The notes under the pieces were generated by a model, which was not told the DNA's origin, did not search any database, and worked only from the letters and a program-made list of their open reading frames with translations. From NCBI GenBank assembly GCA_016781505.1, contig JADDQF010000154.1, positions 5,198-44,287 on the forward strand: a stretch of DNA of 39,090 bases, given 5' to 3'. Source of the stretch: a bacterium. Its GTDB lineage: Bacteria; Chloroflexota; Chloroflexia; Chloroflexales; Kallotenuaceae. Numbering within the stretch: position 1 is the stretch's first letter; each line of letters begins with the position of its first letter. The position numbers and the translations under genes were made by a program. Below, piece after piece: positions 1,205 to 19,008 of this stretch.

Positions 1205-2200
1205 TCAGGCCGCTGCTTTTCGCTTACCAGAGAGCTGATTTTGCAGCACGACGACCAACAAGAGAAACACACCGCGAATAACAGATTGCCAGTAGGCGCT
1301 AAGATTTTCAAAGCTAAGCATATTGATGATCAGGCCAAGCAATAGCACGCCGACAAAGGTGGTACCCACCGATCCGATTCCACCGGTAAGCAGCGTACCG
1401 CCCACCACCACCGCCGCGATTGCGGTAAGTTCCCAACCCAGTCCCTCGGTCGGAATCCCGGTATAGGTAAGGGCTGCCAAAATCGCGCCAGCCAGTGCCG
1501 CCAAGCCCCCACTCAGGGCATACACGCCAAGCTTGATGCGATCAACGGGTAAACCCATCAGTCGCGCCGCGTCCTCGTTGCCCCCGATGGCCAGTACATG
1601 CCGTCCGAAACGGGTGTAGTTGAGCACGATCGAGCCAAGCACGTACGCCACCAGCAGCATGATCACCGGAAAAGGTATGCCTAGCACACCATTAAGCCCG
1701 ATTTCAACGTAGCCGCCAGCCGTGTCGACGCTGACCGCTGCATTCTTCGCCAGCAGCAGCGCCGCTCCCCGAGCACCGAGGAGCATTGCCAGCGTGGTAA
1801 TAAACGGGGCGATATTAAAACGCGTAATCACCCAGCCATTAAACAAGCCAATCAGCAGACCAGTTCCAACCGCTGCCCCGACCGCCACTGTCGCACCATA
1901 CGGGCTGAGCAGCGCGGCAATCACACTTGCCAGCGCCGCCACAGCGCCGACGGACAAATCGATGCCGCCGGTCATGATCACAAAGGTCATACCCAGGGCA
2001 ATTAGTCCAAACATGGCGTTGTAGCGCAGTAACTCCACGATATTGTAGGTACTGATAAACCCGTTATAGCGCAGCGCGCCTATGCAGGTGAGCACAACCA
2101 ACGCTATCAGCGCTCCCTGCCGTTGGAGCATACTCCCGATCCGTGCTTCAGGAGCGGCAGGTGTTGCTGAACCAGCAGTTGATGACGGGATCGTTGCCAT
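1205..2200 (-). CDS. yjfF: Sugar ABC transporter permease, YjfF/RbsC type
   Basis: A 331-residue inner-membrane permease of the ribose/galactofuranose (CUT2) class. After a short polar N-terminus there are eight or more hydrophobic segments. The family signature TGGIDLSVGAV is followed by the cytoplasmic coupling loop RFGRHVLAIGGNEDAARLMG, which contacts the ATPase. A second conserved stretch, VVVGGTLLTGGIGSVGTTFVG, lies near the C-terminus. It is the last gene of the importer operon, 49 bases after the first permease, with AAGGA before its ATG. Two different permeases with a single double ATPase and one binding protein is the arrangement of E. coli YtfQ-YtfR-YtfT-YjfF (galactofuranose import). 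Which permease matches YjfF and which YtfT is assigned by gene order only. Confidence 0.75.
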   Translation of the reverse strand: MATIPSSTAGSATPAAPEARIGSMLQRQGALIALVVLTCIGALRYNGFISTYNIVELLRYNAMFGLIALGMTFVIMTGGIDLSVGAVAALASVIAALLSPYGATVAVGAAVGTGLLIGLFNGWVITRFNIAPFITTLAMLLGARGAALLLAKNAAVSVDTAGGYVEIGLNGVLGIPFPVIMLLVAYVLGSIVLNYTRFGRHVLAIGGNEDAARLMGLPVDRIKLGVYALSGGLAALAGAILAALTYTGIPTEGLGWELTAIAAVVVGGTLLTGGIGSVGTTFVGVLLLGLIINMLSFENLSAYWQSVIRGVFLLLVVVLQNQLSGKRKAAA

Positions 2201-2249: not shown

Positions 2250-3257
2250 TTACACCTTACGCTGCCGTTGGACATACACCGCCAGCAGAATGATTCCGGC
2301 GATAACAATCTGCGCCACAGCAAAGGGCACGCCCTTTGACAGCAGGGTAGAGCGAATCAGCTGAATAATTAAGGCGCCGATCAGTGTGCCACCAATTGTG
2401 GCTCGGCCACCGGTTAGGGGTGTTCCGCCCACTGCCACCGCCGCGATCGCATCCAACTCCATTCCTAGGCCGACACGATTAGCATCCGACGAGGAGTTGA
2501 TGGCGATCACAATCAAGCCAGCCAGTCCGGCCAGCAGACCGCTGATCACATACACCATCCGCTTAATGCGCGCAACCGGAACGCCGGCAAGACGTGCCGC
2601 CGGCTCGTTCCCACCGATGGCCAGCACATACCGACCAAAGATTGTCGCGCGCATCACCCACGCGGCGATCGCGACGATCACCAGCATCAGGATAACTTGA
2701 ACGGGAATGCCCAGTGGCCGGGCCAGGCCAATCACTTGAAAGGCCGGATTTTTGAAGTTCTGGATATTGCCGCTCGTGGCAACCTGGGCAATACCGCGCC
2801 CGCCTACATATAGAATCAGCGTCGCAATGATCGGCTGGATGCGAAAGGTGGTAACGAGCATTCCATTGAACAAGCCAAACAGGCCGGCCACCCCAATCGG
2901 AACCAACCAAGCCAGCACTGTTCCGAGCACGGGAATATTGAACAGGGGCAGGTTGCGGGAAAACAACATCGGTGCGAGCGCCCCTGCAATCGCCATAAGT
3001 GATCCAACCGACAGATCGATGCCACCCGTCGCAATCACCAACGTCATGCCTGTAGCGACAATAACCGTTGTTGCTACCTGCGTAAGGTTCAAATTCAATG
3101 CTGCCAGCGTGCGGAAACTCGGCGTAAACACGAGGTTGTACAGCACAAGCAGCAGCAGCACGGCTAGTGCTCCGTAGGTTTGCCCCACGGCACGGAAGCG
3201 CTCGGGTAGGGCGAAACGACGCTGGGGTAAGCCGGCTACCCGATCAAGCTTCGCCAT
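2250..3257 (-). CDS. ytfT: Sugar ABC transporter permease, YtfT/RbsC type
   Basis: A 335-residue CUT2-class permease that probably pairs with the neighbouring permease as a heterodimer. The start is placed at the ATG at 3257 (MAKLDRVAGLPQRRF) with AGGTGGG eight bases before it. This overlaps the end of the ATPase gene by 14 bases, which suggests translational coupling. Visible landmarks are ATGGIDLSVGSLMAI in the first half, the EAA-like coupling loop IFGRYVLAIGGNEPAARLAG in the middle, and VAVGGTPLTGGRATIGGTL towards the end. Many hydrophobic segments span the chain. A further upstream in-frame start at 3296 would lie deeper inside ytfR and has no better ribosome site. The sugar transported cannot be read from the permease. 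Confidence 0.75.
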   Translation of the reverse strand: MAKLDRVAGLPQRRFALPERFRAVGQTYGALAVLLLLVLYNLVFTPSFRTLAALNLNLTQVATTVIVATGMTLVIATGGIDLSVGSLMAIAGALAPMLFSRNLPLFNIPVLGTVLAWLVPIGVAGLFGLFNGMLVTTFRIQPIIATLILYVGGRGIAQVATSGNIQNFKNPAFQVIGLARPLGIPVQVILMLVIVAIAAWVMRATIFGRYVLAIGGNEPAARLAGVPVARIKRMVYVISGLLAGLAGLIVIAINSSSDANRVGLGMELDAIAAVAVGGTPLTGGRATIGGTLIGALIIQLIRSTLLSKGVPFAVAQIVIAGIILLAVYVQRQRKV

Positions 3258-4806
3258 GTCGTCCCACCTGTTGATCAGTCGTGGACTCGGCACCATGCGC
3301 CATTGCAGTCATGATTGCATCCTCGCTCAAATCAGCGTGGGCCAGCTCCGCTACTGCCTGGCCATCCCGCAGCACGACCACCCGATCACAGCCTTCGGTC
3401 AACTCTTCGAGCTCCGACGAGATCATCAGGACGCCCAGGCCACCCTCGGCGAGCTCGTTAATCAACGATTGAATCTCGCCTTTCGCGCCCACATCAATAC
3501 CACGGGTTGGCTCGTCCAAAATCAGCAGCCGCGGATTAAGACAGAGCCAGCGCGCCAGCAGCACCTTTTGTTGGTTTCCGCCGGACAGCTCGCGAATCTT
3601 TTGATCAGGACCAGCGGTTTTGATGCCCAGCCGTTTGATAAATTGCTCAACAATGGCTTGTTGCTTGTCCCGGGCCACGATACCGTTGCGCGCCAGTACA
3701 GGCAGTAGTGCGAGCGTTAAGTTCTCGCGAACCGACATATAGGGAATAATTCCCTCGGTTTTGCGGTCTTCCGAGCAAAATCCGATGCCAGCGTTGATCG
3801 CATCCGCGGGCGACTTGAAGACAACCTCGGCTCCATCCATCTGAATCTCACCAGCATCTATGGGATCGGCGCCAAAGATAGCGCGTGCCACCTCAGTGCG
3901 GCCTGAGCCAAGCAGCCCGGCAAGCCCAACGATCTCACCAGCACGGACATCAAGATCTACCCCGTGCAGCTTATGCCCGCTTTGCAACCCATGCGCAGTC
4001 AACAGCTCCTGCTTTGCCTGATGCGTCGCGGTTACGAAGCCGGTCGTGCCCAAACGGCGCACCTCGCCCAGCTCTTTGCCCAGCATCCGCGCGACCAGCT
4101 CAAGTTTGGTAATGCCGGCCATTGGCTTGTCGTCTACGGTTTGGCCGTCGCGCATAATCGTAACCCGGTCGCAGACCGCGTACAACTCGTCCAAGCGGTG
4201 GCTGACAAAAATAACCGAGACACCCTCTTGCTTAAGCTGGCGGATCACATCGAAGAGCGTAGCCACTTCCCGCTCGTCCAGTGACGACGTTGGCTCGTCC
4301 ATGATCACCAGCTTGCTGCGAAACGAAACCGCCCGGGCTATCGCCACCATTTGTTGGACCGCCACATTGAGCTGCAGCAGCGGCTGGGTTACGTCAACAC
4401 GAATCCCAAAGCGTTCAAGAATTGTGCTGGCTTCGGCATTCATCCGCCGCCAATCAATCAGGCCAAACCGACGGGGCTCACGACCCATAAAGATGTTTTC
4501 GCTGACTGAGCGAAACGGAACGAGGTTAACTTCCTGGTAGATGGTGCTTACACCCTGGGATTGGGCTTGTTGTGGTGACTGAAAATCGACGGCTTGGCCG
4601 TCAAAGATGATCGAACCGGCATCGCGGCGATACGCGCCGGTTAGGATCTTGATCATGGTCGATTTACCGGCGCCGTTTTGGCCAACTAATGCATGGACCT
4701 CGCCGCGCCCAACCCGGAGTGACGCGCCTTGCAACGCCAACACACCCGGAAATGTTTTCGTGATCCCTTCCATCAGCAACAGTGGTTCGGATTGGGCCAC
4801 AAGCAT
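3244..4806 (-). CDS. ytfR: Sugar ABC transporter double ATPase, YtfR-like
   Basis: A protein of about 520 residues with two fused ABC ATPase domains, the size and layout of RbsA/MglA/YtfR. Domain 1 has Walker A GQNGAGKST, the Q-loop in TIYQEVNLVP and Walker B LVIMDEPTSSLD. Domain 2 has a degenerate P-loop (GLLGSGRTE), signature LSGGNQQKVLLARWL and Walker B LLILDEPTRGIDVG. The stretch EVNLVPFRSVSENIFMGREP followed by RRFGL closely resembles E. coli YtfR as I recall it. It energises the two permeases encoded downstream. The start is ambiguous: ATG at 4806 has GAGG only one base upstream, while GTG at 4800 has the same GAGG at seven bases. A TTG at 4863 would place a 13-bp hairpin inside the gene and is unlikely. 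Confidence 0.85.
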   Translation of the reverse strand: MLVAQSEPLLLMEGITKTFPGVLALQGASLRVGRGEVHALVGQNGAGKSTMIKILTGAYRRDAGSIIFDGQAVDFQSPQQAQSQGVSTIYQEVNLVPFRSVSENIFMGREPRRFGLIDWRRMNAEASTILERFGIRVDVTQPLLQLNVAVQQMVAIARAVSFRSKLVIMDEPTSSLDEREVATLFDVIRQLKQEGVSVIFVSHRLDELYAVCDRVTIMRDGQTVDDKPMAGITKLELVARMLGKELGEVRRLGTTGFVTATHQAKQELLTAHGLQSGHKLHGVDLDVRAGEIVGLAGLLGSGRTEVARAIFGADPIDAGEIQMDGAEVVFKSPADAINAGIGFCSEDRKTEGIIPYMSVRENLTLALLPVLARNGIVARDKQQAIVEQFIKRLGIKTAGPDQKIRELSGGNQQKVLLARWLCLNPRLLILDEPTRGIDVGAKGEIQSLINELAEGGLGVLMISSELEELTEGCDRVVVLRDGQAVAELAHADLSEDAIMTAMAHGAESTTDQQVGRHGEA

Positions 4807-4881: not shown

Positions 4882-5997
4882 TTAGTACGCGTTGGCAATT
4901 TCAGTCGCGGCGTTGCTTGAGTCGAAGAACTTATCTGGATTGATCAGCTTGGCCGGCAACTGCTCGCCCTTAGCATAGCGCTCAAGCGCATCGAACGCGG
5001 CTGGTCCAAAGCGTGGGTTACATTCGACGGTCGCACCGAGTTTGCCGTCAATGATCGCTTGAAGCGCGTCGCGCGTGCCGTCGATCGAGACGATGATAAC
5101 ATCCTTACCTGGGACTTTTCCAGCCTGCTCCAAGGCCGCGATCGCGCCAATCGCCATCTCGTCGTTGTGGGCATACACCGCGGTCACATCAGGATGCGCT
5201 TGCAGCAGCGTTTCCATCGCCTGCCGACCCTTGTCGCGGTCGAAGTCGCCGCTCGGATCGGAGGCAAGGAGTTGCATGCCCGGCTGGCTCTTGATGGCGT
5301 CGTCAAAGCCCTTCTTTCGGTCGATAGCCGGAGACGAGCCCACGGTGCCTTCCAGCTGAATAATCTTGGCATTGCCACCAGTTGCCTTGATCAGCCATTC
5401 GGCTGCGCGCTTGCCTTCTTCAACAAAATCGGAGCCCATGAAGGCCACGTAGTCCTGGCCAGGCTTCGCCAACGATTGATCGACGTTGCGGTCGAGCAGG
5501 AACACGGGAATACCGGCAGCTTTGGCCTTGAGCACGGCTTGAGCCAGCGGCTTCTCGGACTTAGGCGCCAGGAAAATGGCATCGACTTTCTGGGCGATCA
5601 TGGTATCGACGTCGGCAATTTGCTTGGCTTCCGAGCCAGTGGCATCGGTATAAATAAGCTCGTAGCCACGCTTTGCGGCTTCAGCCTTCATGCTTTCCGA
5701 CTGCGCAATTCGCCAAGCGCCATTGCTTTCTACTTGGGCAAAGCCAACTTTGTACTTGTCTTTCTTGGTAACCTTCGGCAATCCACCACCAGCAGCGGCT
5801 TCTCCACCGGCAGCAGCACTTGCGGCGGTTCCACCAGCAGCAGCACTCGCGGTGGCTCCACCAGCAGCAACACTCGCCGCGGTACCAGCCGCACCGGTGC
5901 TATCGCCTGTACCAGTTGTGGGCGAACCGCAGCTGGCTAAAACAAGCATCGCGGCAACGACCATCAACACCAGGGCGAACGAACGACTCTGTTTCAC
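4882..5997 (-). CDS. ytfQ: Sugar-binding lipoprotein, YtfQ-like
   Basis: A 371-residue periplasmic-binding-protein family I lipoprotein. A GTG start at 5997 with AAGGAG upstream gives MKQSRSFALVLMVVAAMLVL followed by a lipobox ending in Cys23 (LASC). Residues of about 30-75 are a low-complexity Ala/Gly/Ser/Thr linker with imperfect repeats of the kind AAGGTAASAAAGG. The ligand domain begins KYKVGFAQVESNGAWRIAQ. AIDRKKGFDDAIK, the SGDFDRDKGRQAMETLLQ helix and VYAHNDEMAIGAI all closely resemble E. coli YtfQ, the galactofuranose-binding protein, as I recall it. It is the first gene of the importer operon and faces iclR across a shared regulatory region with a matched operator. The ligand is therefore probably a hexose in furanose form or a related sugar, but this is not proven. 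Confidence 0.85.
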   Translation of the reverse strand: MKQSRSFALVLMVVAAMLVLASCGSPTTGTGDSTGAAGTAASVAAGGATASAAAGGTAASAAAGGEAAAGGGLPKVTKKDKYKVGFAQVESNGAWRIAQSESMKAEAAKRGYELIYTDATGSEAKQIADVDTMIAQKVDAIFLAPKSEKPLAQAVLKAKAAGIPVFLLDRNVDQSLAKPGQDYVAFMGSDFVEEGKRAAEWLIKATGGNAKIIQLEGTVGSSPAIDRKKGFDDAIKSQPGMQLLASDPSGDFDRDKGRQAMETLLQAHPDVTAVYAHNDEMAIGAIAALEQAGKVPGKDVIIVSIDGTRDALQAIIDGKLGATVECNPRFGPAAFDALERYAKGEQLPAKLINPDKFFDSSNAATEIANAY

Positions 5998-6139: not shown

Positions 6140-6185
6140 TGGAACGTTGTTTCATCAAGCTTACACAATAATTCTGCTTTGTCAA
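6140..6185 (-). promoter_or_regulatory. ytfQ promoter with KdgR/IclR-like operator
   Basis: On the minus strand a perfect TTGACA (6180-6185) is followed after 16 bases by TAAGCT (6158-6163). Three bases later comes TGAAACAACGTTCCA (6154-6140). This 15-mer is close to the KdgR-type palindrome TGAAACAnTGTTTCA and matches the site at the iclR promoter at 13 of 15 positions, with the same orientation and spacing. A protein bound there would cover the transcription start. Confidence 0.65.
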
Positions 6186-6397
6186 CCCCCTCATCTTTGT
6201 CCAATACTATGCCTTAACTGTGAGCGGCGGCAATGTTCCGTCGCAGCTACCCGATGAAATGGCATGGGCAGGCTAAGCAATTACTTACATGCGTCGGCAT
6301 CACCGCGATAAATAAAGAAGCATATTTCCTTAGCTATGCAGCACGTGGCGTTGAGCTGATTTGGAGATACTGAGCTCGACAAGGTCCTGCAGATTGC

Positions 6398-6444
6398 TTG
6401 ACAACCACCTTGGCATCCTCTACAGTGTGTGAAACACTGTTCCA
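6398..6444 (+). promoter_or_regulatory. iclR promoter with KdgR/IclR-like operator
   Basis: TTGACA (6398-6403), a 17-base spacer and TACAGT (6421-6426) make a good sigma-70-type promoter. TGAAACACTGTTCCA (6430-6444) starts three bases after the -10 box and should overlap the transcription start. The iclR start codon lies about 50 bases further on. The site pairs with the matching operator at 6140-6154, which suggests autoregulation together with control of the importer. Confidence 0.7.
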
Positions 6445-6492: not shown

Positions 6493-7287
6493 ATGGCCGG
6501 TAATTCAAGCGTCGAGCGAGCGCTCGAGATACTCCAATACCTTTCGCGGCATTCCGGCCAGCATGGAGTTCGCAGCTTGGCTGCCGCGCTGGACCTCAGT
6601 CCGAGTACGGTGTTTCGGCTGCTTGAAACGCTGGAGCATGCCGGCTTTGTGCAACAAAACACGTTGACCGAAAAGTATGAGATTGGGGTCAAAGCCGTGC
6701 AGCTGGGCATTGCCGCGCTCGGCTCACTTGATCTCACTGCCGTAGCACCAGCCCGACTACGCACCTTGGTGAGCGAAACAGGTGAATCTGCATTTCTTGC
6801 CGTACGCGATGACACCGAGGTGGTGTATCTGCTCAAAGAAGAGGGGCGCTATTCGATCCGCACGACCGCCCTGCTTGGTACGCGCCGACCGTTACATTGC
6901 ACCGGACTCGGCAAATCATTTTTGGCGACCATACCACCAGCCGAGGCAGAGGAGGTATTGCGACGGGCCGGGATGGCGGCCCTCACAGCCAACACCATTA
7001 CCGATCTGGGTCACCTTTGGGAAGAGCTCGCATTGATAAGAGTGCGCGGGTATGCGACGGACCGTGAAGAAGTCGAGGAAGGCTTAGCATGTGTGGCCGC
7101 TCCCATTCGTGACTACCGTGGAGCAACCGTTGCAGCTGTGAGCATGGCTGGGCCTGTGGGCCGGATTTTGCCGCACGAAGAGCGTTTTGGCCGACGCGTG
7201 GCTGCAACCGCTCTGGAAATCTCGACTGTCCTCGGATACTTGCCGCGCTCCAATTCCCAAAGCATGGCCGCACTTCACGAGGTCTGA
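6493..7287 (+). CDS. IclR-family transcriptional regulator
   Basis: A 264-residue IclR regulator. The N-terminal winged helix-turn-helix (residues 5-65) begins SSVERALEILQYLS and includes the recognition segment LDLSPSTVFRLLETLEHAG. The C-terminal effector domain has the usual TGESAFLAV, LHCTGLGKSFLA and GLACVAAPIRDYRGATVAAV signatures. The length is typical of the family, and GGAG lies six bases before the ATG. It is divergent from the ytfQ importer and heads the enzyme genes 7474-16132, so it most probably controls both in response to a sugar acid or keto-deoxy intermediate. KdgR, the classical 2-keto-3-deoxygluconate sensor, belongs to this family, and the two operators here resemble KdgR sites. 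The ligand is unknown. Confidence 0.9.
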   Translation: MAGNSSVERALEILQYLSRHSGQHGVRSLAAALDLSPSTVFRLLETLEHAGFVQQNTLTEKYEIGVKAVQLGIAALGSLDLTAVAPARLRTLVSETGESAFLAVRDDTEVVYLLKEEGRYSIRTTALLGTRRPLHCTGLGKSFLATIPPAEAEEVLRRAGMAALTANTITDLGHLWEELALIRVRGYATDREEVEEGLACVAAPIRDYRGATVAAVSMAGPVGRILPHEERFGRRVAATALEISTVLGYLPRSNSQSMAALHEV

Positions 7288-7473: not shown

Positions 7474-8235
7474 ATGAAGCTACAAGACCGTGTAGCCGTA
7501 ATCACTGGCGCCGGATCCGGTATTGGACAGGCGATGGCGCTGCAGTTTGCACGGGAAGGCGCCCGTATCTTGGCCGCGGACATTAACGGAGACGCGGCGC
7601 AGCAGACCGTCGGTATGGTCACGGATGCTGGAGGAACCTGCCAGTCATACCCAGTTGATGTGACTCAACCCGAGCAGGTCCGGGCCATGATTGACCAGGC
7701 CTTAGCAACCTATGGCCAACTTGATATATTGTGCAACAATGCCGGCATCGGCTCGACAACTGATGTGGTCGATTGCGAACCCGAGGACTGGGATCGCGTT
7801 ATGACAGTTAACGTTAAGAGTGTGTTTTTAGGCTGTAAATACGCGGTACCCCGTATGGTTCAGCAACAGCGGGGCGTGATCATCAATACCGCATCGGTAG
7901 CTGGCATGGTCGGGATCGTCAAACGGGCCGCGTACTGCGCGAGCAAGGGCGCAGTGATTGCGCTTACCCGTCAAGTAGCCGTGGAATATGTCAAGCAGGG
8001 TATTCGTGTGAACTGCTTGTGTCCTGGTACGGTGGACTCGCCCTGGGTCGAGCGGCTCTTGGCACAGGCCGACGACCGTGTCGCTGCTCGCCAAGCGTTG
8101 GAGGCGCGCCAACCGATGGGCCGCTTAGGCACGCCGGAGGAAGTAGCAGCGGCAGCGCTGTATCTCGCATCCGACGACGCAGCATTCATTACCGGCACAG
8201 GCCTGGTGCTCGATGGCGGTTGGACTGCTGCCTAA
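7474..8235 (+). CDS. NAD-dependent short-chain dehydrogenase, possibly for a 2-keto-3-deoxy sugar acid
   Basis: A 253-residue classical SDR. The Rossmann motif TGAGSGIG is at residues 11-18, and Asp36 at the end of the second strand favours NAD over NADP. NNAG is at 88-91 and the catalytic set is Ser141, Tyr154 and Lys158 (YCASK). The start at 7474 is chosen for the AAGGGAG just upstream; the frame runs open further back to 7435 without a better site. The C-terminal stretch RQPMGRLGTPEEVAA and the D-C-E-P-E-D-W segment recall 2-keto-3-deoxy-L-fuconate dehydrogenases and related sugar-acid SDRs. That fits an operon with an acid-sugar dehydratase and an aldehyde dehydrogenase. Substrate prediction within SDRs is weak, so a sugar (fucose-type) dehydrogenase role is also possible. 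Confidence 0.8.
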   Translation: MKLQDRVAVITGAGSGIGQAMALQFAREGARILAADINGDAAQQTVGMVTDAGGTCQSYPVDVTQPEQVRAMIDQALATYGQLDILCNNAGIGSTTDVVDCEPEDWDRVMTVNVKSVFLGCKYAVPRMVQQQRGVIINTASVAGMVGIVKRAAYCASKGAVIALTRQVAVEYVKQGIRVNCLCPGTVDSPWVERLLAQADDRVAARQALEARQPMGRLGTPEEVAAAALYLASDDAAFITGTGLVLDGGWTAA

Positions 8236-8276: not shown

Positions 8277-9797
8277 ATGGCTGCTGAAACACAGCGAGAT
8301 ACCTATCAGCTACTGATTGGCGGCGAGTGGCGCAGTGCCACCGGGGGCGGAATGCGGCCTGTGCTGAACCCGGCGACAGGTGAAGCGTTTGCGAACGTAC
8401 CCGAAGGCAGCCGCGAAGATGCACGGGCTGCCCTTGAAGCAGCGCAGGCTGCCCAGCCGGCTTGGGAAGCACTAACCGGGGTGCAGCGCGCCGACTACCT
8501 CAAGCGCATTGCCGAACTGATCCGCCAGGATGCCGAGCGTCTCGCCCGCATTGTCGTGCAGGAGCAGGGCAAGCCCCTGGTCGAGGCCCGCGGCGAGATC
8601 GCCGGATCGGCGGGCTTTTTTGATTACTTCACCTCGTTCGCCCGCGCGCCCATGGGCGAGATTATCCCGTCCGACAATGCCAACGAGGACATCTGGATCC
8701 GCAATGTGCCGTATGGTGTCGTGGTCGGCATCATTCCGTGGAACTACCCGGCCGCCCTCTTCGCTCGTAAAGTCGCGCCTGCGCTGATGGCCGGCAATAC
8801 CATCGTGATCAAGCCCCACGAAGACACGCCGCTAAGCTCGCTTGAGCTGGCAAAAATCGTCGAGGCGGCGGGCGTACCTCGCGGTGTAGTTAACGTCGTC
8901 ACGGGTGCCGGCCGGGAAGTCGGCGACGCGCTGGTGCGCGATCGCATCACCCAGCTCGTAACAGTGACGGGGTCGGTGCGGGCCGGGCAGGAAATTCTGG
9001 CAGCATCCGCCGAAAACATCACCGTTGTCTCGCTTGAGCTTGGCGGCAAAGCTCCGTTCATCGTGATGGACGATGCGAACCTGGAGCTTGCGGTGCGTAA
9101 CGCCCTGCACGCTCGCTTTGTGAACTGCGGCCAAGTCTGCACCTGCAACGAGCGCACCTACGTCCATCGCCGGGTCTATGATCAATTTTTGGAGCGCTAC
9201 GTCGCCATGGCGAGCAAGCTACGGCTCGGCAATCCCATGCGCACCGATATTGACCTGGGGCCTAAGGTGAACCAGGTCGAGGTCGAAAAGCTGGAGCGCA
9301 TGGTGGCCCGGGCACAGCAGCAGGGCGCTGAGATTGTGTTAGGCGGCAAGCGGCCGGAGGGCGCTGAATTTGAGCGCGGATTCTGGTACTCGCCCACCGT
9401 GTTAACCAACGTTCGCAACGACATGGAGATCATGCAGCAGGAAACGTTTGGCCCGATCTCGCCGGTTATGGCCTTTGACGACTTTGAGGAGGCCATCGCG
9501 CTGGCCAACGATACCCGCTACGGACTAAGCGCCTACCTTTTTACCAATGACCTGAAGCGCATGATGCGCGCCGTCCAGGCCGTGCGCTCCGGCGAAGTGT
9601 ATATCAACAAGATCGGACCCGAGCAGTTCCAGGGCTTCCACACCGGCTATGGACTGAGCGGCATGGGCGGCGACGACGGCCCCCATGGCTTCGATCATTA
9701 CTTCCGCAAAAAGACCATTTATGTCAACTATGGGGATGCGCAGCCAAGTGGATTAATGCCCTACGAGACAGCAGCAACCGACCTTCCACCGCAGTAG
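8277..9797 (+). CDS. AldA-like aldehyde dehydrogenase (lactaldehyde/glycolaldehyde/glyceraldehyde)
   Basis: A 506-residue NAD-dependent aldehyde dehydrogenase. Visible elements are PWN at 154-156, the general base Glu254 in LELGGK, and the nucleophile Cys288 in the N-C-G-Q-V-C segment. The region ELGGKAPFIVMDDANLELAV and the C-E-R-type segment after the nucleophile (CTCNERTYVHRRVYDQF) resemble E. coli AldA, which oxidises L-lactaldehyde and glycolaldehyde. The C-terminus is longer than AldA by an extra tail after YVNYGDAQPS. AAAGGAGG lies just before the ATG and the gene follows the SDR by 41 bases. In this operon it would oxidise the aldehyde half released from a keto-deoxy sugar acid, giving lactate, glycolate or glycerate. 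The last two enzymes of the cluster could use such products. Confidence 0.85.
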   Translation: MAAETQRDTYQLLIGGEWRSATGGGMRPVLNPATGEAFANVPEGSREDARAALEAAQAAQPAWEALTGVQRADYLKRIAELIRQDAERLARIVVQEQGKPLVEARGEIAGSAGFFDYFTSFARAPMGEIIPSDNANEDIWIRNVPYGVVVGIIPWNYPAALFARKVAPALMAGNTIVIKPHEDTPLSSLELAKIVEAAGVPRGVVNVVTGAGREVGDALVRDRITQLVTVTGSVRAGQEILAASAENITVVSLELGGKAPFIVMDDANLELAVRNALHARFVNCGQVCTCNERTYVHRRVYDQFLERYVAMASKLRLGNPMRTDIDLGPKVNQVEVEKLERMVARAQQQGAEIVLGGKRPEGAEFERGFWYSPTVLTNVRNDMEIMQQETFGPISPVMAFDDFEEAIALANDTRYGLSAYLFTNDLKRMMRAVQAVRSGEVYINKIGPEQFQGFHTGYGLSGMGGDDGPHGFDHYFRKKTIYVNYGDAQPSGLMPYETAATDLPPQ

Positions 9798-9927
9798 CCG
9801 CAACGACCGGGACCAGTGGCAGCTGAGAGTGGCTCGGAGCTCCACGTATGCTGTCGCTGGCCTATGCCGCATCATACGCTGTGGCTACGTGGGAACCAAG
9901 AAACGGAAAACGAAGAGGTTTTCGAGC

Positions 9928-12228
9928 ATGGACATATCAGCGAAGCAAGCACTCAAGGATATTCTCGGGCAGCAAACAACCGCTCTGTTGAGCCTGAATC
10001 CATACGAAGCCCGCACCGCTGCCGCCATTTTTGAGCGAATGTTTCCCCCTGACGAAAACGGGCCGGGCGCGATCGAGCTTGGCGTCGTCACCTACCTCGA
10101 CCGGGCACTGGCAGGTGCGTATCGCGACAAAGTTGAGATCTATCGCGTTGGGCTAGCCGCCCTGGATCAGGAGGCACGCCAACAGTATGACCGGCCGTTC
10201 GCCGATTGCAGCGAGCAGCAGCAAGATACCTTGATCGGCCAGCTCGAGCACGGCACACTGCCCGATTTTCAAGCACCGCCTCCGTTCGATTTTTTCAAGC
10301 TGCTGCGGATGCACCTCCAGGAGGGACTGTTTGCCGATCCAGCCTATGGCGGCAATCGCGACAAGCAGGGCTGGCGCTTTTTAGGCCACACCGGGGTCTG
10401 GTTTGAAAACTCCGCCGAGGAAAACCTGGCGACGGAGCCGGTAACCAAGGGTGGGGTGATACAGTCGCTCGCCGACGTGGGCTATTCTCTGGATGGCGGT
10501 CCGCGCGAACCGGTTGCACAGCCAGGATACGATCCCCAGCGGGGCGGGCAACCACCGGCCGGACCCGTCGACGTTGTGCTGGTTGGCGTTGGTGCAGCCG
10601 GGGCGCAAGCGGCGGCGATCCTGTGCCAGGCCGGGCTGCGGGTGGTTGGCTTGGAGGCTGGTCCATGGCGGACCAAGCGCGATTTCGTGCCCGACGAGCT
10701 GGGCTCGGCCTATTACACCCGCGGCAGCATGGGGCCCAAGTTCCTGAGCGAAACACCGCGCTGGCGCCGCAACGAAAACGAACCGACCCGCGAAGCTACC
10801 TTCACCCTTGGCCGCATGATGAACAGCGTAGGCGGCTCGGTGATCCATTGGGGCGGAGCGCTGCGCCGCTGCCACCCACACCACTTCAAGTTTCTGACAC
10901 ATATACGCGAGAACTTTGGCGAAAAGATTCTGCCGGCAGGCCACACGCTGGCCGACTGGCCCATCTCCTACGACGAGCTCGAGCCGTACTACACCGCTAT
11001 CGAATATCACATCGGTGTTGCCGGCGATGGCGCGCGCAATCCGTTCGTGCCGCGGAGCATGCCGCTCCCGATGCCGCCGCTGCGCAAATTTACCATGGCC
11101 GAGGTGTTTCGCACCGCGGGCGAACGCATGGGCCTTCACCCGTATCCAACGCCGGTCGCGGTTAACAGCGTGCCCTACAATGGCTTTCCCGCGACAACCT
11201 ATTGTGCCTGGAGTGGTGGCTTTGGCCCGTTCAACGACGAGCGGTGGCAGCCGGGCCTGACCTGGGTACCCCAAGCGCTGGCCACAGGCAACTTCGATCT
11301 GCGCACGCATTGCCGCGTGGTTCGCATACTCACCGACAAGGATGGCCATGCGAGCGGCGTTGAGTATGTGGACGCCAACGGCAACTGGCAAGTACAGGAA
11401 GCGCACACCGTGATTGTGTGCAGCTACACCTTTGAAAACGTGCGCCTGCTGCTGCTGTCGGGCGATTCTAAACATCCGAACGGTCTGGGCAACAACTCCG
11501 GCCAGGTCGGCAAGCACCTGATGAGCAAGCTGTGGTCGGATGTGTCCGGCTTCTTTCCCGATATCGTCTTCAACGCCCATACCGGCCCAGCCGCCCAAAT
11601 GTGGACCATCGACGACTTCCTTGCGGCGGATGTCGATTTTGGAGCGCTTGGCTTTGTGGGCGGTGCGGCGCCCAACATCGAAAACCAGCGGCTGCCGATT
11701 CAGATCAGCCGCGAAGCCTTGCCGCCGGATGTGCGCTGCTGGGGCAAGGAGTACAAAGATCATCTGCGGCAGTGGCAGCATATCGCGGCGGTACGGCTCC
11801 AGCCGGATACCCTGCCCTACCATGCCAACTACCTTGACCTCGATCCGCGCTATCGCGACCGGAGCGGGCTGGGATTACCGGTGCTGCGCATCACCTATGA
11901 TATGCAGCCAAACGAACACCGCCTGTCAGACTACATGGAGACCAAGGCCGAGGAAATTTTACGAGCGATGGGCGCAACAAAAAGCTGGCGCGGCCAACGC
12001 TTTGGCGGGGTGGTCAGCAGCCACGAGCTCGGCGGCTGCCGGATGGGCGAAGATCCGGCGCTGTCCGTGGTTGGCCCCGATCTCGCCGTCCATGATACGC
12101 CCGGCCTGTATGTTTTCGGTACGGCCGTCTTTCCTTCGTGTCATGGCGTTAATCCCACGCTCACCATGTTTGCGCTCTGCCAACGGGCTGCGGAACAGCT
12201 GGTGGAGCGTCTACGCACCGCGGCATAA
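9928..12228 (+). CDS. Fused gluconate-2-dehydrogenase subunit 3 / GMC oxidoreductase
   Basis: A 766-residue two-domain protein. Residues of about 20-160 resemble gluconate 2-dehydrogenase subunit 3: LSLNPYEARTAAAIFERMFP, then PFADCSEQQQDTLI, then LFADPAYGGNRDKQGWRFLG. Residues from about 213 form a GMC flavoprotein with the FAD-binding GVGAAG at 220-225. The C-terminal signature runs SHELGGCRMGEDP ... VFGTAVFPSCHGVNPTLT, with the usual catalytic His and Asn. In known membrane-bound sugar dehydrogenases the small subunit and flavoprotein are separate chains plus a cytochrome c subunit. Here they are fused, no cytochrome gene follows, and no Tat or Sec signal is visible, so it may be cytoplasmic with an unknown electron acceptor. 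Start ATG 9928 has GAAGAGG nine bases upstream. It probably oxidises a sugar or sugar acid. Confidence 0.85.
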   Translation: MDISAKQALKDILGQQTTALLSLNPYEARTAAAIFERMFPPDENGPGAIELGVVTYLDRALAGAYRDKVEIYRVGLAALDQEARQQYDRPFADCSEQQQDTLIGQLEHGTLPDFQAPPPFDFFKLLRMHLQEGLFADPAYGGNRDKQGWRFLGHTGVWFENSAEENLATEPVTKGGVIQSLADVGYSLDGGPREPVAQPGYDPQRGGQPPAGPVDVVLVGVGAAGAQAAAILCQAGLRVVGLEAGPWRTKRDFVPDELGSAYYTRGSMGPKFLSETPRWRRNENEPTREATFTLGRMMNSVGGSVIHWGGALRRCHPHHFKFLTHIRENFGEKILPAGHTLADWPISYDELEPYYTAIEYHIGVAGDGARNPFVPRSMPLPMPPLRKFTMAEVFRTAGERMGLHPYPTPVAVNSVPYNGFPATTYCAWSGGFGPFNDERWQPGLTWVPQALATGNFDLRTHCRVVRILTDKDGHASGVEYVDANGNWQVQEAHTVIVCSYTFENVRLLLLSGDSKHPNGLGNNSGQVGKHLMSKLWSDVSGFFPDIVFNAHTGPAAQMWTIDDFLAADVDFGALGFVGGAAPNIENQRLPIQISREALPPDVRCWGKEYKDHLRQWQHIAAVRLQPDTLPYHANYLDLDPRYRDRSGLGLPVLRITYDMQPNEHRLSDYMETKAEEILRAMGATKSWRGQRFGGVVSSHELGGCRMGEDPALSVVGPDLAVHDTPGLYVFGTAVFPSCHGVNPTLTMFALCQRAAEQLVERLRTAA

Positions 12229-12275
12229 GTATCGCCTGCTGTCGATACCTCCTAACGATGGAACAAGGAAGTGCA

Positions 12276-13358
12276 ATGAAAATAGAACGTATCGAGACCG
12301 CATATTACCGTTTGCCGTTGGAAGCCGTGGGCGATGCTGGCCACGGTCTGCTTGATTCGGAAGAGCTGATCACGCTCCGCCTCCATGCCGAAGGGCTGGA
12401 AGCGCACGGCTACACCTACACGATTGGCAAGGGTGGTCGCGCCGTGCAAGCCGTCATCGACCACGACCTGGCTCCGATTCTGGTTGGCCAGGACGCCAAT
12501 GATATTCAGCGCTTGTGGAACATGATGTGGCAGCGTTTGTTGTATGTCGGCCGCGGCGGGCTCGCGGCCTTTGCCATCGCCGCCGTCGATGTCGCGCTGT
12601 GGGATCTGCATGGCTTGCGCGACCAGAAGCCGCTGTACGCGCTGTTTGGAGCAGAAGCACGTGATATACCTGCTTACGGATCGGGCGTCGATCTGCCGAA
12701 ATCGCTGGACGATTTGTTGAAGCAGACCGAAAGCTTTATGGCGCGCGGCTTCCCCGGTGTCAAAGTCAAGATTGGCCGAATCGACCCTCAGGAAGACGAA
12801 GCGCGCGTCGGCGCCGTACGCAAGCTTATCGGCCCCGGCGTGGACTTGATGGTGGACGCGAACATGACCTGGACCACAGAACAAGCGTTGGAGCGTGGCC
12901 GCCGTTTGGAACAGTTCGGCCTGTACTGGTACGAAGAGCCTACGATCCCGGAAGATGTCAAGGGCCACGCCCGGCTGGCGCAGGAGCTTGATGTGCCGAT
13001 TGCGATTGGCGAAAGCCTCCATTCGCCCCACGAGTTTCAGCGCTATGTGGATGAAGGCGCCGTGGAGGTACTGCAGATCGATCCGATCACGAATGGCGGC
13101 ATTACCGCGTCCTTGAAAGCGCTCCAGATGGCGGATGCAGCAGGGCTAAAAACCAGCAGTCACTACACCGATGAGCTCAGCGCCCATCTATTGTCGGCTT
13201 CACGCAACGCCGTGTACCTGGAAAAACACGCCTTCGCGCTCGATCCATACCTCCAAGAGCCGCAGCGGGTGGTTAATGGCCATGTGCGCCCAACGGAAGT
13301 GCCGGGCACTGGCATGCGCTTTGATGAATCCGCTCTAGCGCCCTACCGCGACCGCTAG
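12276..13358 (+). CDS. Mandelate-racemase-subgroup enolase enzyme, probable acid-sugar dehydratase
   Basis: A 360-residue enolase-superfamily protein. The full mandelate racemase residue set is present: Lys163-x-Lys165 on the second barrel strand, metal ligands Asp194, Glu220 and Glu246, the Asp269/His296 dyad, and Glu316. These lie exactly one position before the residues numbered in the Pseudomonas putida enzyme. In this subgroup, enzymes with both KxK and the His-Asp dyad include racemases and sugar-acid dehydratases. The context (sugar importer, GMC dehydrogenase, keto-acid SDR, aldehyde dehydrogenase) favours dehydration of an aldonate or aldarate to a 2-keto-3-deoxy acid. The start at 12276 follows AAGGAAG. 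Exact stereochemistry and substrate cannot be inferred. Confidence 0.85.
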   Translation: MKIERIETAYYRLPLEAVGDAGHGLLDSEELITLRLHAEGLEAHGYTYTIGKGGRAVQAVIDHDLAPILVGQDANDIQRLWNMMWQRLLYVGRGGLAAFAIAAVDVALWDLHGLRDQKPLYALFGAEARDIPAYGSGVDLPKSLDDLLKQTESFMARGFPGVKVKIGRIDPQEDEARVGAVRKLIGPGVDLMVDANMTWTTEQALERGRRLEQFGLYWYEEPTIPEDVKGHARLAQELDVPIAIGESLHSPHEFQRYVDEGAVEVLQIDPITNGGITASLKALQMADAAGLKTSSHYTDELSAHLLSASRNAVYLEKHAFALDPYLQEPQRVVNGHVRPTEVPGTGMRFDESALAPYRDR

Positions 13359-13462: not shown

Positions 13463-14734
13463 ATGCAGGTATCGTTAGCATATGGGCGGGGGCGTATGAT
13501 GATCAACGTGCCCGACGATGCGGTTGTGATCACCCCCCAAGAGCTGCCGGGGCTGGCCGACGAGCACGCGGCCTTTGAGGCGGCCGTACGCAGTCCCATC
13601 CAAGCCACGCCACTTCGGGAGCAGGTAGCCGCCGATGCACGGGTGGCGATCGTGATCGCCGACATCACTCGGCCCTCGCCGAGCGAGCGCCTCGTGCCGT
13701 GGATTATGCAAGAGCTGGCGCATGTACCGCGGGAAAATTTTGTCATCATCAACGGGACGGGCTCGCACCGGGCTAATACCCAGGCCGAGCTGGTCCAGAT
13801 GCTGGGCGCGGAGGTCGTCGAAACGGTCCGGATCGTCAACCACAATGCCTTTGACGACGGCACGCTGACCCATCTGGGACGCACGAGCTACGGCGGCGAA
13901 ATCTGGGTCAACAACGAGTATCTCCAGGCGGATGTGCGCATCGTCACGGGCTTTATCGAGCCCCACTTCTTCGCCGGATTTAGTGGTGGGCCAAAAGGAA
14001 TTATTCCGGGTGTTGCCGGCATCAAAACCATTATGCACCTCCACAATGCGCAGATGATCGGCGATGAGCGCTCGACCTGGGCACGCTTGGAAGGCAACCC
14101 GGTGCAAGGCGAGATTCGTGAAGCCGTGGCTATGGCGCCGCCGCACTTCATAGTCAACGTGGCGGTTAATTCGCGGCGCGAGATCACGGCGGTCTGGGCC
14201 GGGCATTACATCGCCGCCCACGAAGTCGGCTGCCGCTTTGTGGCCCAACACGCCACCTGTCCCGTCGAAGCTGTTTTTGATGTTGTGGTGACCACCAACA
14301 GCGGCTACCCGCTGGACCAGAACTTGTATCAAGCCGTCAAAGGCATGAGCGCCGCGGCGCGTATCGTCAAGCCGGGCGGCGCGATCATCGCCGCCGCAGA
14401 ATGCAGCGATGGGCTGCCTAGTCACGGCAACTACAAAGACTTGCTCCAAATGCGCGAGTCGGCCCAAGCGCTTCTGGAAATGATTGAAGCGCCGGGCTTT
14501 GAAATGTACGACCAGTGGCAGGCGCAGTCGCAGGCGCTGGTGCAGCGCAAGGCCCAGGTGTATCTGCACTCGTCGCTCGACGCTGAGACAGTTCGGCAAG
14601 CAATGCTGGAGCCAGCTCCCGACATCGAAACAACCCTGGCGGAGCTAGTAGAGCGCTATGGGCCGGGAGCACGGGTAGCGGTGCTGCCCGAAGGACCGCA
14701 AACCGTGCCCTACGTAACCGAAGCTGTAGTCTAG
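13463..14734 (+). CDS. LarA-family nickel-pincer 2-hydroxyacid racemase/epimerase
   Basis: A 423-residue protein of the lactate racemase LarA family. The conserved residues of Lactobacillus plantarum LarA are all present at a constant offset: His102 (GTGSHR), His168 (EPHFFAGFSGG), Lys178 (GGPKGI, the lysine that carries the nickel-pincer nucleotide) and His194. AAGGAG precedes the ATG. The cofactor-making genes larB, larC and larE are not in the window. Known LarA homologues act on lactate, other short 2-hydroxyacids and D-gluconate. Between an acid-sugar dehydratase and a glycerate kinase, this one could epimerise a sugar acid at C2, interconvert lactate enantiomers made by the AldA-like enzyme, or racemise glycerate. 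Family assignment is firm; substrate is open. Confidence 0.85.
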   Translation: MQVSLAYGRGRMMINVPDDAVVITPQELPGLADEHAAFEAAVRSPIQATPLREQVAADARVAIVIADITRPSPSERLVPWIMQELAHVPRENFVIINGTGSHRANTQAELVQMLGAEVVETVRIVNHNAFDDGTLTHLGRTSYGGEIWVNNEYLQADVRIVTGFIEPHFFAGFSGGPKGIIPGVAGIKTIMHLHNAQMIGDERSTWARLEGNPVQGEIREAVAMAPPHFIVNVAVNSRREITAVWAGHYIAAHEVGCRFVAQHATCPVEAVFDVVVTTNSGYPLDQNLYQAVKGMSAAARIVKPGGAIIAAAECSDGLPSHGNYKDLLQMRESAQALLEMIEAPGFEMYDQWQAQSQALVQRKAQVYLHSSLDAETVRQAMLEPAPDIETTLAELVERYGPGARVAVLPEGPQTVPYVTEAVV

Positions 14735-14761: not shown

Positions 14762-16132
14762 ATGAATCCCGATGGCTTGCTGACGTATTCGCTGCGCGCG
14801 CATCCCCAAGGCGGCGCGCTTGTCGAGATCATGGCCGCAGCATTAGCAGCAGCCGATCCCCACGCAGCTGTACGGCGCTCGGTGCGCGTCGCCGACTCTG
14901 CAATCATGGTCGGTAGGCAGCGCTACGACCTGAGTGCTTCCAGCCGAGTCATCGTGGTTGGTGCCGGCAAAGCGGGCACACCGATGGCGGAGGCCGCGTA
15001 TGCGGCGCTCGGCGAGATCATCGCTGCGGGGCTGGTGGTGGTCAAGCAAGGGCATCTGGGGACAACGCATGGGCAGGTAGGTCCCATCACGCTGCTGGAA
15101 GCGAGCCATCCTGTGCCGGATGAGCGCGGCGTGAAGGCTGCTGAGCGGCTGATGGCGCTGCTGGAGAATCTCCGTCCCGCCGATCTGGTGCTGGTACTGC
15201 TATCGGGTGGAGGCTCTGCGCTGCTGACCCTGCCCGCGCCCGGCCTCTCCCTTGCCGACCTGCAAGGCCTGACCAGCGCCCTGCTGCGCTGTGGCGCGAC
15301 GATTGGCGAGATCAACACCCTGCGAAAACACTGCTCGCGCATTGCCGGTGGTCAGCTCGCGTTGCGCGCTAGCCCTGCCCGCGTCGCCACGCTGGTGATT
15401 TCGGATGTGATCGGCTCGCCGCTTGATGTGATTGCCTCGGGGCCGACCGTGCCCGATCCGACGACCTACGCCGACGCCTGGGCGTTGATCCAACGCTACC
15501 AGCTGGAGCAGACCGTACCTGCGCCAATTCTTCATCATTTGCAGGGTGGATTAGCAGGCGAGCTACCGGAAACACCCAAGGCCGATGCCTCATTGTGGCA
15601 GCGCGTGCACAACGAGGTGATCGCGAGCAACGTGTCTGCTGCCGAAGCAGCAGTTATGGCTGCTCAGGAAGGTGGTTTTCAAGCGCAGATTATGACAACT
15701 TTTTTGGAAGGCGAGGCCCGCGAGGTTGGACGGGTAGCCGCGGCGGTGGCGCGTGAGCTCGCACTGCGTGGCCAACCCTTTGGTCGCCCAGCGTTGATCA
15801 TTGCCGGTGGCGAGACGACCGTAACACTAGGGGGCGACGGCTTGGGCGGCCGCAATCAAGAGCTGGCCTTAGGAGCAGTCGCCGGTCTCGCAGGCCTACC
15901 CGATGCCGTGATCGTCGCGCTGGCAACCGATGGCGGGGACGGCCCTACCGACGCAGCGGGTGCCGTGGTTACCGGATCCACACTCCTACGGGCAAAGGAT
16001 CAGGGATTGGATCCAGCCCATTTTCTGCGGCACAATGATGCCTATCACTTCTTTGCTCCACTCGGCGATCTGCTACAGCCCGGCCCGACCCTCACCAATG
16101 TGAATGACCTGCTCTTTATTGCTGTCCCTTAG
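14762..16132 (+). CDS. Glycerate 2-kinase, class II (MOFRL family)
   Basis: A 456-residue protein of the GckA/TtuD glycerate kinase family, which phosphorylates D-glycerate to 2-phosphoglycerate and feeds lower glycolysis. Visible signatures are VIVVGAGKAGTPMAEA near residue 70, the Gly/Ser loop LLSGGGSALL, VISDVIGSPLDVIASGPTVP, and the C-terminal MOFRL domain with IAGGETTVTL and GGRNQELAL followed by ATDGGDGPTDAAGAVV. The start at 14762 (MNPDGLLTY) follows CAAGGAG; the frame extends 21 bases upstream without a better site. It is the last gene of the plus-strand operon, 27 bases after the LarA-like gene and before a strong hairpin. It suggests that one product of the pathway is glycerate, made from glyceraldehyde by the aldehyde dehydrogenase. 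Confidence 0.88.
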   Translation: MNPDGLLTYSLRAHPQGGALVEIMAAALAAADPHAAVRRSVRVADSAIMVGRQRYDLSASSRVIVVGAGKAGTPMAEAAYAALGEIIAAGLVVVKQGHLGTTHGQVGPITLLEASHPVPDERGVKAAERLMALLENLRPADLVLVLLSGGGSALLTLPAPGLSLADLQGLTSALLRCGATIGEINTLRKHCSRIAGGQLALRASPARVATLVISDVIGSPLDVIASGPTVPDPTTYADAWALIQRYQLEQTVPAPILHHLQGGLAGELPETPKADASLWQRVHNEVIASNVSAAEAAVMAAQEGGFQAQIMTTFLEGEAREVGRVAAAVARELALRGQPFGRPALIIAGGETTVTLGGDGLGGRNQELALGAVAGLAGLPDAVIVALATDGGDGPTDAAGAVVTGSTLLRAKDQGLDPAHFLRHNDAYHFFAPLGDLLQPGPTLTNVNDLLFIAVP

Positions 16133-16755: not shown

Positions 16756-17937
16756 TCATGGGTTACTCAGCAGGCTCAATCGCGCTTGCCACTCATCCGT
16801 GGCGAATGCGAGACGGCCACGACAAATGGTAGCCTGCAGCGCGAGTTCGTGATCAAGCAGCAGCAGGTCGGCATCGTAGCCGGGTTGCAGCAAGCCTTTG
16901 CGCGCTGCCACGCCCGCCGAGCAAGCCGGATTAATTGTCGCCATGCCGATGGCACTGGCCAGCGGCAGGTCGGTAAAGCGCAGCACATTGCGCAGGGCTT
17001 GCGCCATCGTCAGCACGCTTCCGGTAATCGTGCCGTCTTGAAGGCGGGCAACTCCCGCGACAACCTCGGCCGGTTGACCGCCAAAGGAAAAGCGGATATT
17101 ACCCATTCCGGCACAGGCCAGGGCATCCGTCACCAGCACAGTGCGCTGGGGTCCGAGGGCGCGCACCAGCACACGCGCGGCTGCTGGGTGTACATGCACG
17201 CCGTCGGCAATCAGCTCGCCTCGCACCTCGTCCGCCTCCACAATCGCGCCTAAGGGTCCTGGCTCGCGATGCAGCAGCGGCCGCATCGCATTGAAGCAGT
17301 GCGTCGCGTGCGTGATGCCGAGCTTGAGCGCCGCTTGCGCCTGCTCGTAGTTCACGTCGGTATGGCCGATGCTGATCGTCACACCTGCGGCCCGAAGCCG
17401 TTGCATTAGCGCTTCGGCGCCAAGCAGCTCGGGCGCCACGGTGATCAGCTTCAGGTAGCCTTGAGCTACATGGAGCAGCTCCTCCGTCTCCGATTCTGTG
17501 GGGGTTCGGAGCCACACTGGGTCATGGGCGCCGCGCCGCGCCACGCTTATGTACGGGCCTTCCAGGTGAATACCCAGCACTTCCGCGCCCGTCTCGTTTG
17601 ATTCAATCGCAGCGATCACCGACCGCATTTGCGCTCGCGGCAGGCCACCCGGCACGCCAACCACTCCAGCCAGAAACGAGGTAGTACCGGTGCTCGGAGC
17701 CCAATGCGCATACGCTGCAATATCGGCCGGATTTTCAGTATGGAGGTCGTGCATGCCGCCGCCATGCGTATGGACATCGACAAATCCCGGTGCGACGATC
17801 AGGCCGCCGACGTCGATGGAGGTGCTATCCGCAGGCAGCGCATCACCTACGATCCGCGAGTCCGCAAACGAGAGTGGAGAGTCCGCACGTTCGCCGGTGG
17901 CGTCGACCAGCCGACCGCCTGTGAGTGTCACCACCAT
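16756..17937 (-). CDS. nagA: N-acetylglucosamine-6-phosphate deacetylase
   Basis: A 393-residue amidohydrolase that converts GlcNAc-6-phosphate to glucosamine-6-phosphate and acetate in amino-sugar recycling. Metal and substrate residues of the family are present: His56-x-His58 (VDVHTHGGG), Glu126 in GIHLEGPY, His192 in IGHTD, His213 in THCFNAM, His248 in DGVHVHP, and catalytic Asp271 in LVTDALACAG. The usual TINPA motif is near the C-terminus. Start ATG 17937 has AAGGGGGG about ten bases upstream. It follows the SIS-family gene by 36 bases on the same strand, so the two are almost certainly co-transcribed and catalyse successive steps. Confidence 0.93.
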   Translation of the reverse strand: MVVTLTGGRLVDATGERADSPLSFADSRIVGDALPADSTSIDVGGLIVAPGFVDVHTHGGGMHDLHTENPADIAAYAHWAPSTGTTSFLAGVVGVPGGLPRAQMRSVIAAIESNETGAEVLGIHLEGPYISVARRGAHDPVWLRTPTESETEELLHVAQGYLKLITVAPELLGAEALMQRLRAAGVTISIGHTDVNYEQAQAALKLGITHATHCFNAMRPLLHREPGPLGAIVEADEVRGELIADGVHVHPAAARVLVRALGPQRTVLVTDALACAGMGNIRFSFGGQPAEVVAGVARLQDGTITGSVLTMAQALRNVLRFTDLPLASAIGMATINPACSAGVAARKGLLQPGYDADLLLLDHELALQATICRGRLAFATDEWQARLSLLSNP

Positions 17938-17973
17938 GGTCGATTGCCCCCCTTGTTTGGTTCACCCGTTTAG

Positions 17974-19008
17974 CTAAACAGTACGCGTCACCTTCTGCAG
18001 ACCGCGGGGACGATCAGGATCAACACCTTTCGCGCGGGCAAGGTTCATTGCCAGCACCTGACCGGGCACGATCGCCGCTATTGGGCTGAGCCACTCGGGA
18101 ACGGCCGGCGGCAATGGCAGCACTGTGGTAGCGAGCGCCTGCGCTTCAGCAACATCCGATGCGACCAACAGCTCAGCTCCTTGCATTTGTAAGTCTTGCG
18201 CCAGCTGCAGCATATCGCTAAAGACCGCGCCCTGCGGCATGATCAACAACACCGGCATGCCGTCAGCTATCGTAGCGATCGGCCCGTGCCGAAAGTCGGC
18301 GGATGAGTAGGCACTAGCCATAACATAGGTGAGCTCTTTGAGCTTCAGCGCCAGTTCGAGCGCGGTGGCATAATTGTAGCCCCGGCCAATCAGCACGCAG
18401 TGCTCCATGTAGCGGTAGCGCTCGGCTTGTTGCGCCAGGTCGTCCACGCCACCCAACACGGCTGAAAGCACGTCAGGCATGCGCTCAAGCTCAGTCCAGC
18501 GCTCCGGTTGGCCATGCCACGCAGCCGCGAGCAGCGCGATTGTGGCAAGCTGAGCAGTATATGTTTTGGTTGCCGCCACGCTTCTTTCAACGCCCGCGTG
18601 CAGCTCAATCACATGGTCGGCCGCCGCCGCTAGCGGTGATGAGCCGTCATTGGTAATCGCCAAGGTGGGACGACCCTGCCGTTTGCCTTCCTCCACCACG
18701 GCCACAATGTCAGGCGATTGGCCGGATTGCGAAATGCCGACCACCAGCGCCTCGTCCAAACGAGGTGGCGTGTGGTACAACGTGTGGAGCGCCGGGGTTG
18801 CCAGGGCAACCGGATGTCCAGTCAGCGCTGCCCACGCATATTTCGCGTAGGTTGCCGCGTGATCGGAGGTGCCGCGCGCCGCAATCAGGGCGTAGGCAAA
18901 CGGCGGCAGATCGGCAACAATCCGGCGGACTCGCGCTCCCTCTTGCGCGATCAGGCCGGCAAGCACATCGGGTTGGCTCCTGATCTCTTCGTCAAGCAAC
19001 ACGCTCAT
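17974..19008 (-). CDS. SIS-domain glucosamine-6-phosphate deaminase (NagB-II/GlmS isomerase-like)
   Basis: A 344-residue protein with two sugar-isomerase (SIS) domains and no glutaminase domain. Phosphosugar-binding motifs are ARGTSDHAATYAKY, GISQSGQSPD and VAATKTYTAQLA in the first SIS domain. The second has ELALKLKELTYVMASAYSSA and FRHGPIA, and the C-terminus DRPRGLQKVTRTV matches the end of GlmS. Lacking the amidotransferase half, it should run towards fructose-6-phosphate and ammonia, as SIS-type glucosamine-6-phosphate deaminases do. It probably uses the product of the adjacent NagA. An AgaS-like galactosamine role is an alternative. The ribosome site is weak (AAAGGAACGATCGC before ATG 19008). 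Confidence 0.8.
   Translation of the reverse strand: MSVLLDEEIRSQPDVLAGLIAQEGARVRRIVADLPPFAYALIAARGTSDHAATYAKYAWAALTGHPVALATPALHTLYHTPPRLDEALVVGISQSGQSPDIVAVVEEGKRQGRPTLAITNDGSSPLAAAADHVIELHAGVERSVAATKTYTAQLATIALLAAAWHGQPERWTELERMPDVLSAVLGGVDDLAQQAERYRYMEHCVLIGRGYNYATALELALKLKELTYVMASAYSSADFRHGPIATIADGMPVLLIMPQGAVFSDMLQLAQDLQMQGAELLVASDVAEAQALATTVLPLPPAVPEWLSPIAAIVPGQVLAMNLARAKGVDPDRPRGLQKVTRTV

Follow-up and report, generated by a model that had tools for sequence, protein, structure and literature searches.

Gene content and promoters of the divergent locus

The window, i.e. the whole stretch of 39,090 nt that was analysed, contains a 495-bp intergenic region from which a sugar importer operon is read leftwards, and an IclR-family regulator gene followed by a set of enzyme genes rightwards. 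The features of this locus are the following:

1205..2200, minus strand: sugar ABC permease (BPD_transp_2)
2250..3296, minus strand: sugar ABC permease (BPD_transp_2)
3244..4797, minus strand: sugar ABC transporter ATPase with two ABC domains (profile matches)
4882..5997, minus strand: YtfQ-like sugar-binding lipoprotein (Peripla_BP_4; YtfQ model 266 bits, cut-off 510; probably starts with GTG at 5997, preceded by AGGAGA)
6140..6154, minus strand: left putative operator, TGAAACAACGTTCCA, at the importer promoter (family consensus in PMC8222616)
6158..6185, minus strand: importer promoter (TTGACA 6185-6180, 16-nt spacer, weak -10 box TAAGCT 6163-6158; direct reading)
6398..6426, plus strand: iclR promoter (TTGACA 6398-6403, 17-nt spacer, TACAGT 6421-6426; 10 of 12 matches in the promoter scan)
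6430..6444, plus strand: right putative operator, TGAAACACTGTTCCA, at the iclR promoter (exact match to the group 2 consensus TGRAACANTGTTYCA)
6493..7287, plus strand: IclR-family regulator, 264 aa (Pfam IclR_C 150 bits, HTH_IclR 59 bits)
7474..8235, plus strand: short-chain dehydrogenase, SDR (profile matches)
8277..9797, plus strand: aldehyde dehydrogenase, ALDH (profile matches)
9829..12228, plus strand: Gluconate_2-dh3 domain fused to a GMC oxidoreductase (profile match; start uncertain)
12258..13358, plus strand: enolase-superfamily (MR/MLE) enzyme, probable sugar-acid dehydratase (talarate/galactarate dehydratase model 250 bits, cut-off 500)
13463..14734, plus strand: LarA-type nickel-dependent racemase/epimerase (NCBIfam NF033504 523 bits, above the cut-off of 460)
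14762..16132, plus strand: glycerate 2-kinase-like protein (DUF4147/MOFRL; profile matches)

The 187-bp gap between iclR and the enzyme genes contained no recognisable promoter or terminator, and transcription likely reads through from the regulator into the enzymes, although these might be served by a promoter of their own. In the GMC fusion, the gluconate 2-dehydrogenase subunit 3 domain precedes the oxidoreductase within one 799-aa frame, and orthologues are present in 19 of the 158 genomes of the class. Besides, an amino-sugar pair of NagA-like amidohydrolase and SIS-domain genes (16756-19008, minus strand) converges on the enzyme operon, and a 504-aa protein encoded at 21586-23100 displays, by eye, a KaiC/RadA-like arrangement of two P-loop motifs.

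An earlier note on this DNA had described two similar 15-mers, each three bases downstream of the -10 box of a promoter with a perfect TTGACA, between divergent ytfQ and iclR genes. Re-reading of the sequence confirmed both words with their positions and orientations, the two TTGACA boxes and the three-base gap at either promoter, and profile matches bore out a YtfQ-like solute-binding protein on the left and an IclR protein on the right. The claim that the two words are equally placed is correct but for a single base: counted from TTGACA, the right site starts 32 nt and the left site 31 nt downstream, so that each would cover the expected transcription start, near 6433 on the plus strand and near 6151 on the minus strand. 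The left -10 box agrees with TATAAT at only three of six positions and was rejected by the promoter scan; the two TTGACA boxes are the only such words in the intergenic region. By eye, we saw no tandem second box or three-box site next to either 15-mer. An inverted repeat, ACAGTGT-5-ACACTGT (6422-6440), overlaps the right -10 box and the right 15-mer, yet with arms of 7 bp it may plausibly be due to chance.

Operator motif and identity of the regulator

Both 15-mers fit the pattern TGRAACANNGTTYCA, which is near the palindrome TGRAACAN1-2TGTTYCA defined as the group 2 IclR-family motif from 282 proteins (Suvorova and Gelfand 2021, PMC8222616). The right site matches this published consensus exactly and the left site with one difference; a palindromic operator motif of group 2 type is hence found near the gene of the window IclR itself. 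Taken alone, the likeness of the two words is weak evidence, since of 300 dinucleotide shuffles of the 495-bp intergenic region, 33 (11%) contained some pair of 15-mers with at most two mismatches. More telling is their common fit to a single family consensus: out of 20,000 shuffled versions of the intergenic region, two contained TGRAACANNGTTYCA at least once and none contained it twice, and it was absent from 100 shuffles of the window. We therefore regard it as very improbable that the 15-mers are chance resemblances devoid of regulatory function. While the frequency of similar pairs in shuffles would agree with chance, as would the observation that across the class the operator pattern was only moderately commoner than its reversed control, the two exact matches to TGRAACANNGTTYCA within 495 bp, their location downstream of the region's only two TTGACA words, and the genome-wide scarcity of the pattern and its association with iclR genes (see below) all argue against it. 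The two 15-mers are very probably operators of the adjacent IclR-family protein.

The earlier note had further linked these sites to KdgR and its ligand, 2-keto-3-deoxygluconate, and this part was not supported. Both the HTH_IclR and the IclR_C domain of the window protein scored far above their gathering thresholds, but all NCBIfam equivalog cut-offs were missed. KdgR (NF011671) was the second-best NCBIfam match with 168.6 bits, far below its cut-off of 275, and was surpassed by BhcR (NF045644), the best match with 206.4 bits against a cut-off of 350. In gammaproteobacteria, the KdgR operator has the consensus RWWGAAACGNCGTTTCAKKA (PMC8222616, Table 1), which the window sites do not follow: its core GAAAC/GTTTC is only partly there, the right halves being GTTCCA, and the motif that they do match is common to a whole branch of the IclR family. 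The probable sugar-acid dehydratase and the glycerate kinase of the operon would suit a keto-deoxy acid route; however, the genes beside the sites included no recognisable keto-deoxy acid aldolase or KDG-route kinase. The KdgR assignment was accordingly rejected on equivalog score and operator motif, and we consider it quite unlikely that the regulator is a KdgR orthologue sensing 2-keto-3-deoxygluconate. As to the ligand of the window IclR, the ligand-oxygen residues of IclR have been given in E. coli IclR numbering as G160, A161, D212, S239 and S241 (PMC11323563). In an alignment to 2o99, with the numbering placed by hand, the window protein keeps G160, D212 and S239, while A161 is replaced by L and S241 by A; a carboxylate ligand would hence be plausible.

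In several genomes of the class, five of them in the order, TGAAACAWWGTTTCA palindromes lie ∼30 nt upstream of genes for ZnuA-family solute-binding proteins (loci L109, L110, L111, L115 and L117, near 1501), four of which were confirmed with Pfam. These palindromes are candidate operators of a metal regulator that resemble the KdgR/IclR site. A KdgR-like word is therefore not diagnostic of KdgR, as close versions of it mark zinc-uptake-type genes in this class.

Sites in the genome and in related bacteria

With 4.18 Mb and 96% completeness, the genome that contains the window has genes for two IclR_C proteins. A scan of it for further copies, as proposed in the earlier note, with the slightly wider pattern TKRAACANNGTTYMA returned four places, against none for the reversed control. 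Two are the window 15-mers. The genome's one other iclR gene (contig C48) has the third, TTGAACAATGTTCCA, at its 5' end, 16 nt past a TTGACA-17-TATCAT promoter. The fourth, TTGAACATGGTTCCA on contig C8 (L105, 9763-9777), precedes an SBP_bac_5 solute-binding gene by 20 nt. As the pattern was widened after the C48 site had been seen, this third match does not count as independent confirmation, whereas the fourth match and the lack of matches to the control do. Five copies with one mismatch to the sites elsewhere in the genome were not accepted: four lie within longer reading frames and the fifth, 142 nt upstream of a LacI-type gene, adjoins a masked stretch.

The left halves read TGAAACA in the window pair and TTGAACA in the C48 and C8 sites. 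This division into two pairs suggests two related but separate regulons, in which case TTGAACATGGTTCCA would be a candidate member of the second IclR's regulon; the very similar site of that regulator makes cross-regulation possible. Might the window sites then belong to another regulator altogether, either this second IclR or a metal regulator with similar operators? The TTGAACAATGTTCCA site of the second IclR would be in keeping with this, as would the ZnuA-associated palindromes, which imply that the word is not exclusive to IclR. We nevertheless deem it unlikely, given that the window genes are unrelated to metal uptake, that the window pair differs from the C48 and C8 sites in its shared left half, and that iclR directly adjoins the pair. 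The operon of the second iclR gene (L067, 5877-13371, contig C48) itself encodes an FAH-family protein, an aldehyde dehydrogenase and an IlvD/Edd dehydratase, probably of a pentonate-type pathway, and lies opposite genes for a zinc alcohol dehydrogenase and a Gfo/Idh/MocA protein, with xylulokinase-like and beta-glucosidase-like genes nearby.

Neither the 158 genomes of the class, nor a 400-genome sample of the phylum, nor a public genome scan yielded an orthologue of the window IclR exceeding 43% identity; the best match, 43%, came from the class, with lower values in the phylum sample and 25-31% in the public scan. Likewise, when TGRAACANNGTTYCA was sought near IclR genes across the class, the only gene recovered among the fetched loci was the window genome's own. 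Importer orthologues, on the other hand, were present in 16 other genomes, with solute-binding proteins 55-81% identical. The fetched stretches around them contained no IclR gene, and up to 900 bp upstream of them there was no exact or one-mismatch site, the sole two-mismatch word (L052) lying within a reading frame. A genome of the same family and a sister genus (G051, L169; 99% complete) carries SDR, ALDH and GMC genes 78-82% identical to those of the window, in another order; it lacks an IclR_C protein genome-wide, and no operator was found upstream of its SDR or GMC gene. Site and regulator are thus missing together in the relatives.

Importer orthologues (L053, L054, L055, L056, L058-L063, L065, L066) are often divergent from an enolase-superfamily gene, ∼30% identical to that of the window, followed by an SDR gene, again without an IclR gene. 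The link between importer and dehydratase consequently has independent support, and their pairing is conserved in relatives under other control.

A twin layout similar to that of the window was seen in one further genome (G090, L089), in which iclR is divergent from another gene, with a perfect TTGACA in both directions and one palindrome per promoter: TGAAAACTACTTTCA abuts the -10 box and TGAAACGGGTTTCCA lies 11 nt past it (by eye, unscored). It differs in that its IclR is 39% identical to the window protein and that Pfam gave no match for the divergent gene. Another genus includes three genomes (L016, L019, L026) in which a palindrome-like TGGAAA-N4-TTTT is located 4-5 nt past the TACACT box of iclR, likewise by eye and unscored. 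This suggests that one operator per promoter, placed at the start site, may be a recurring design.

Regulatory model and comparison with known systems

The operator reading is backed by the fit to the family consensus, the scarcity of the site, its presence at the other iclR gene, its absence where no IclR is encoded and the twin layout in G090. What stands of the original interpretation is therefore a pair of IclR-family operators over the expected start on both sides; the reference to KdgR and 2-keto-3-deoxygluconate was not supported. We infer from sequence that the window IclR binds these sites, that it represses rather than activates and what kind of inducer it responds to. In the proposed mechanism, an IclR dimer or tetramer would sit on each palindrome just downstream of the -10 box and, by covering the transcription start, would block RNA polymerase leftwards, into the importer operon, and rightwards, into a unit comprising iclR and the sugar-acid enzyme operon. 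A small carboxylate derived from the imported sugar would probably release IclR, whereupon import and breakdown would be induced together, and iclR would control its own expression. Taken as a whole, this explanation (IclR operators, start-site blocking in both directions, release by a carboxylate, joint induction and self-control) appears highly probable to us.

For Caldicellulosiruptor, a site within the 5' leader or overlapping the promoter was read as the mark of a repressor, KdgR being among those so classed (PMC8579813). The location of the window sites downstream of the -10 box fits repression by blocking, and the window IclR most likely represses in both directions. It would be less in line with an activator or a dual regulator acting through at least one of the two sites, a reading to which we assign a low probability. 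Dual regulatory roles are known in the IclR family. BhcR, the best profile match, activates its target operon in Paracoccus (PMC11323563) and has a candidate site upstream of a -35 box, so that members of the family can act other than by blocking. However, both window sites lie over the start, where a bound protein normally blocks, and the right promoter, whose match to the consensus marks it as strong, would work without activation.

The repression model makes the locus an ordinary, well-precedented case of regulation with a well-supported IclR operator pair. A bolder reading, which we put forward only tentatively, is that an undescribed oxidative sugar-acid route is run by an acquired IclR of new effector specificity, whose operator variant differs from the one used by the second IclR. 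Its candidate enzymes would be the GMC oxidase fusion, the dehydratase-like protein, the Ni-dependent LarA epimerase/racemase and the glycerate kinase. In either case, the locus connects an orphan YtfQ-type importer with a specific set of enzymes, an aid in guessing substrate and pathway. Besides, two regulators with four sites form a clean system for studying the operator specificity of IclR paralogues.

Among known systems, BhcR of Paracoccus (PMC11323563) resembles the window regulator in profile and in adjoining a divergent target operon, yet it activates, its candidate site being upstream of -35, serves another pathway and has an equivalog cut-off that the window protein does not reach. 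KdgR of gammaproteobacteria and Caldicellulosiruptor (PMC8579813) matches the proposed role of the window protein as an IclR-family repressor of sugar-acid genes with sites over the promoter or in the 5' leader, but its operator consensus differs and the window protein remains well under its cut-off. Group 2 IclR regulons (PMC8222616) share with the window the palindrome and their small, local extent, and frequent targets of the family are sugar and sugar-acid transport and dehydrogenase genes (COG1028 SDR, COG1012 ALDH; PMC8222616), while the window's gene set of GMC fusion, LarA and glycerate kinase is a particular one. The group 2 proteins of that survey include none from Chloroflexi (PMC8222616, Table in section 13), and the window thus places a probable IclR operator pair in a phylum beyond those represented there.
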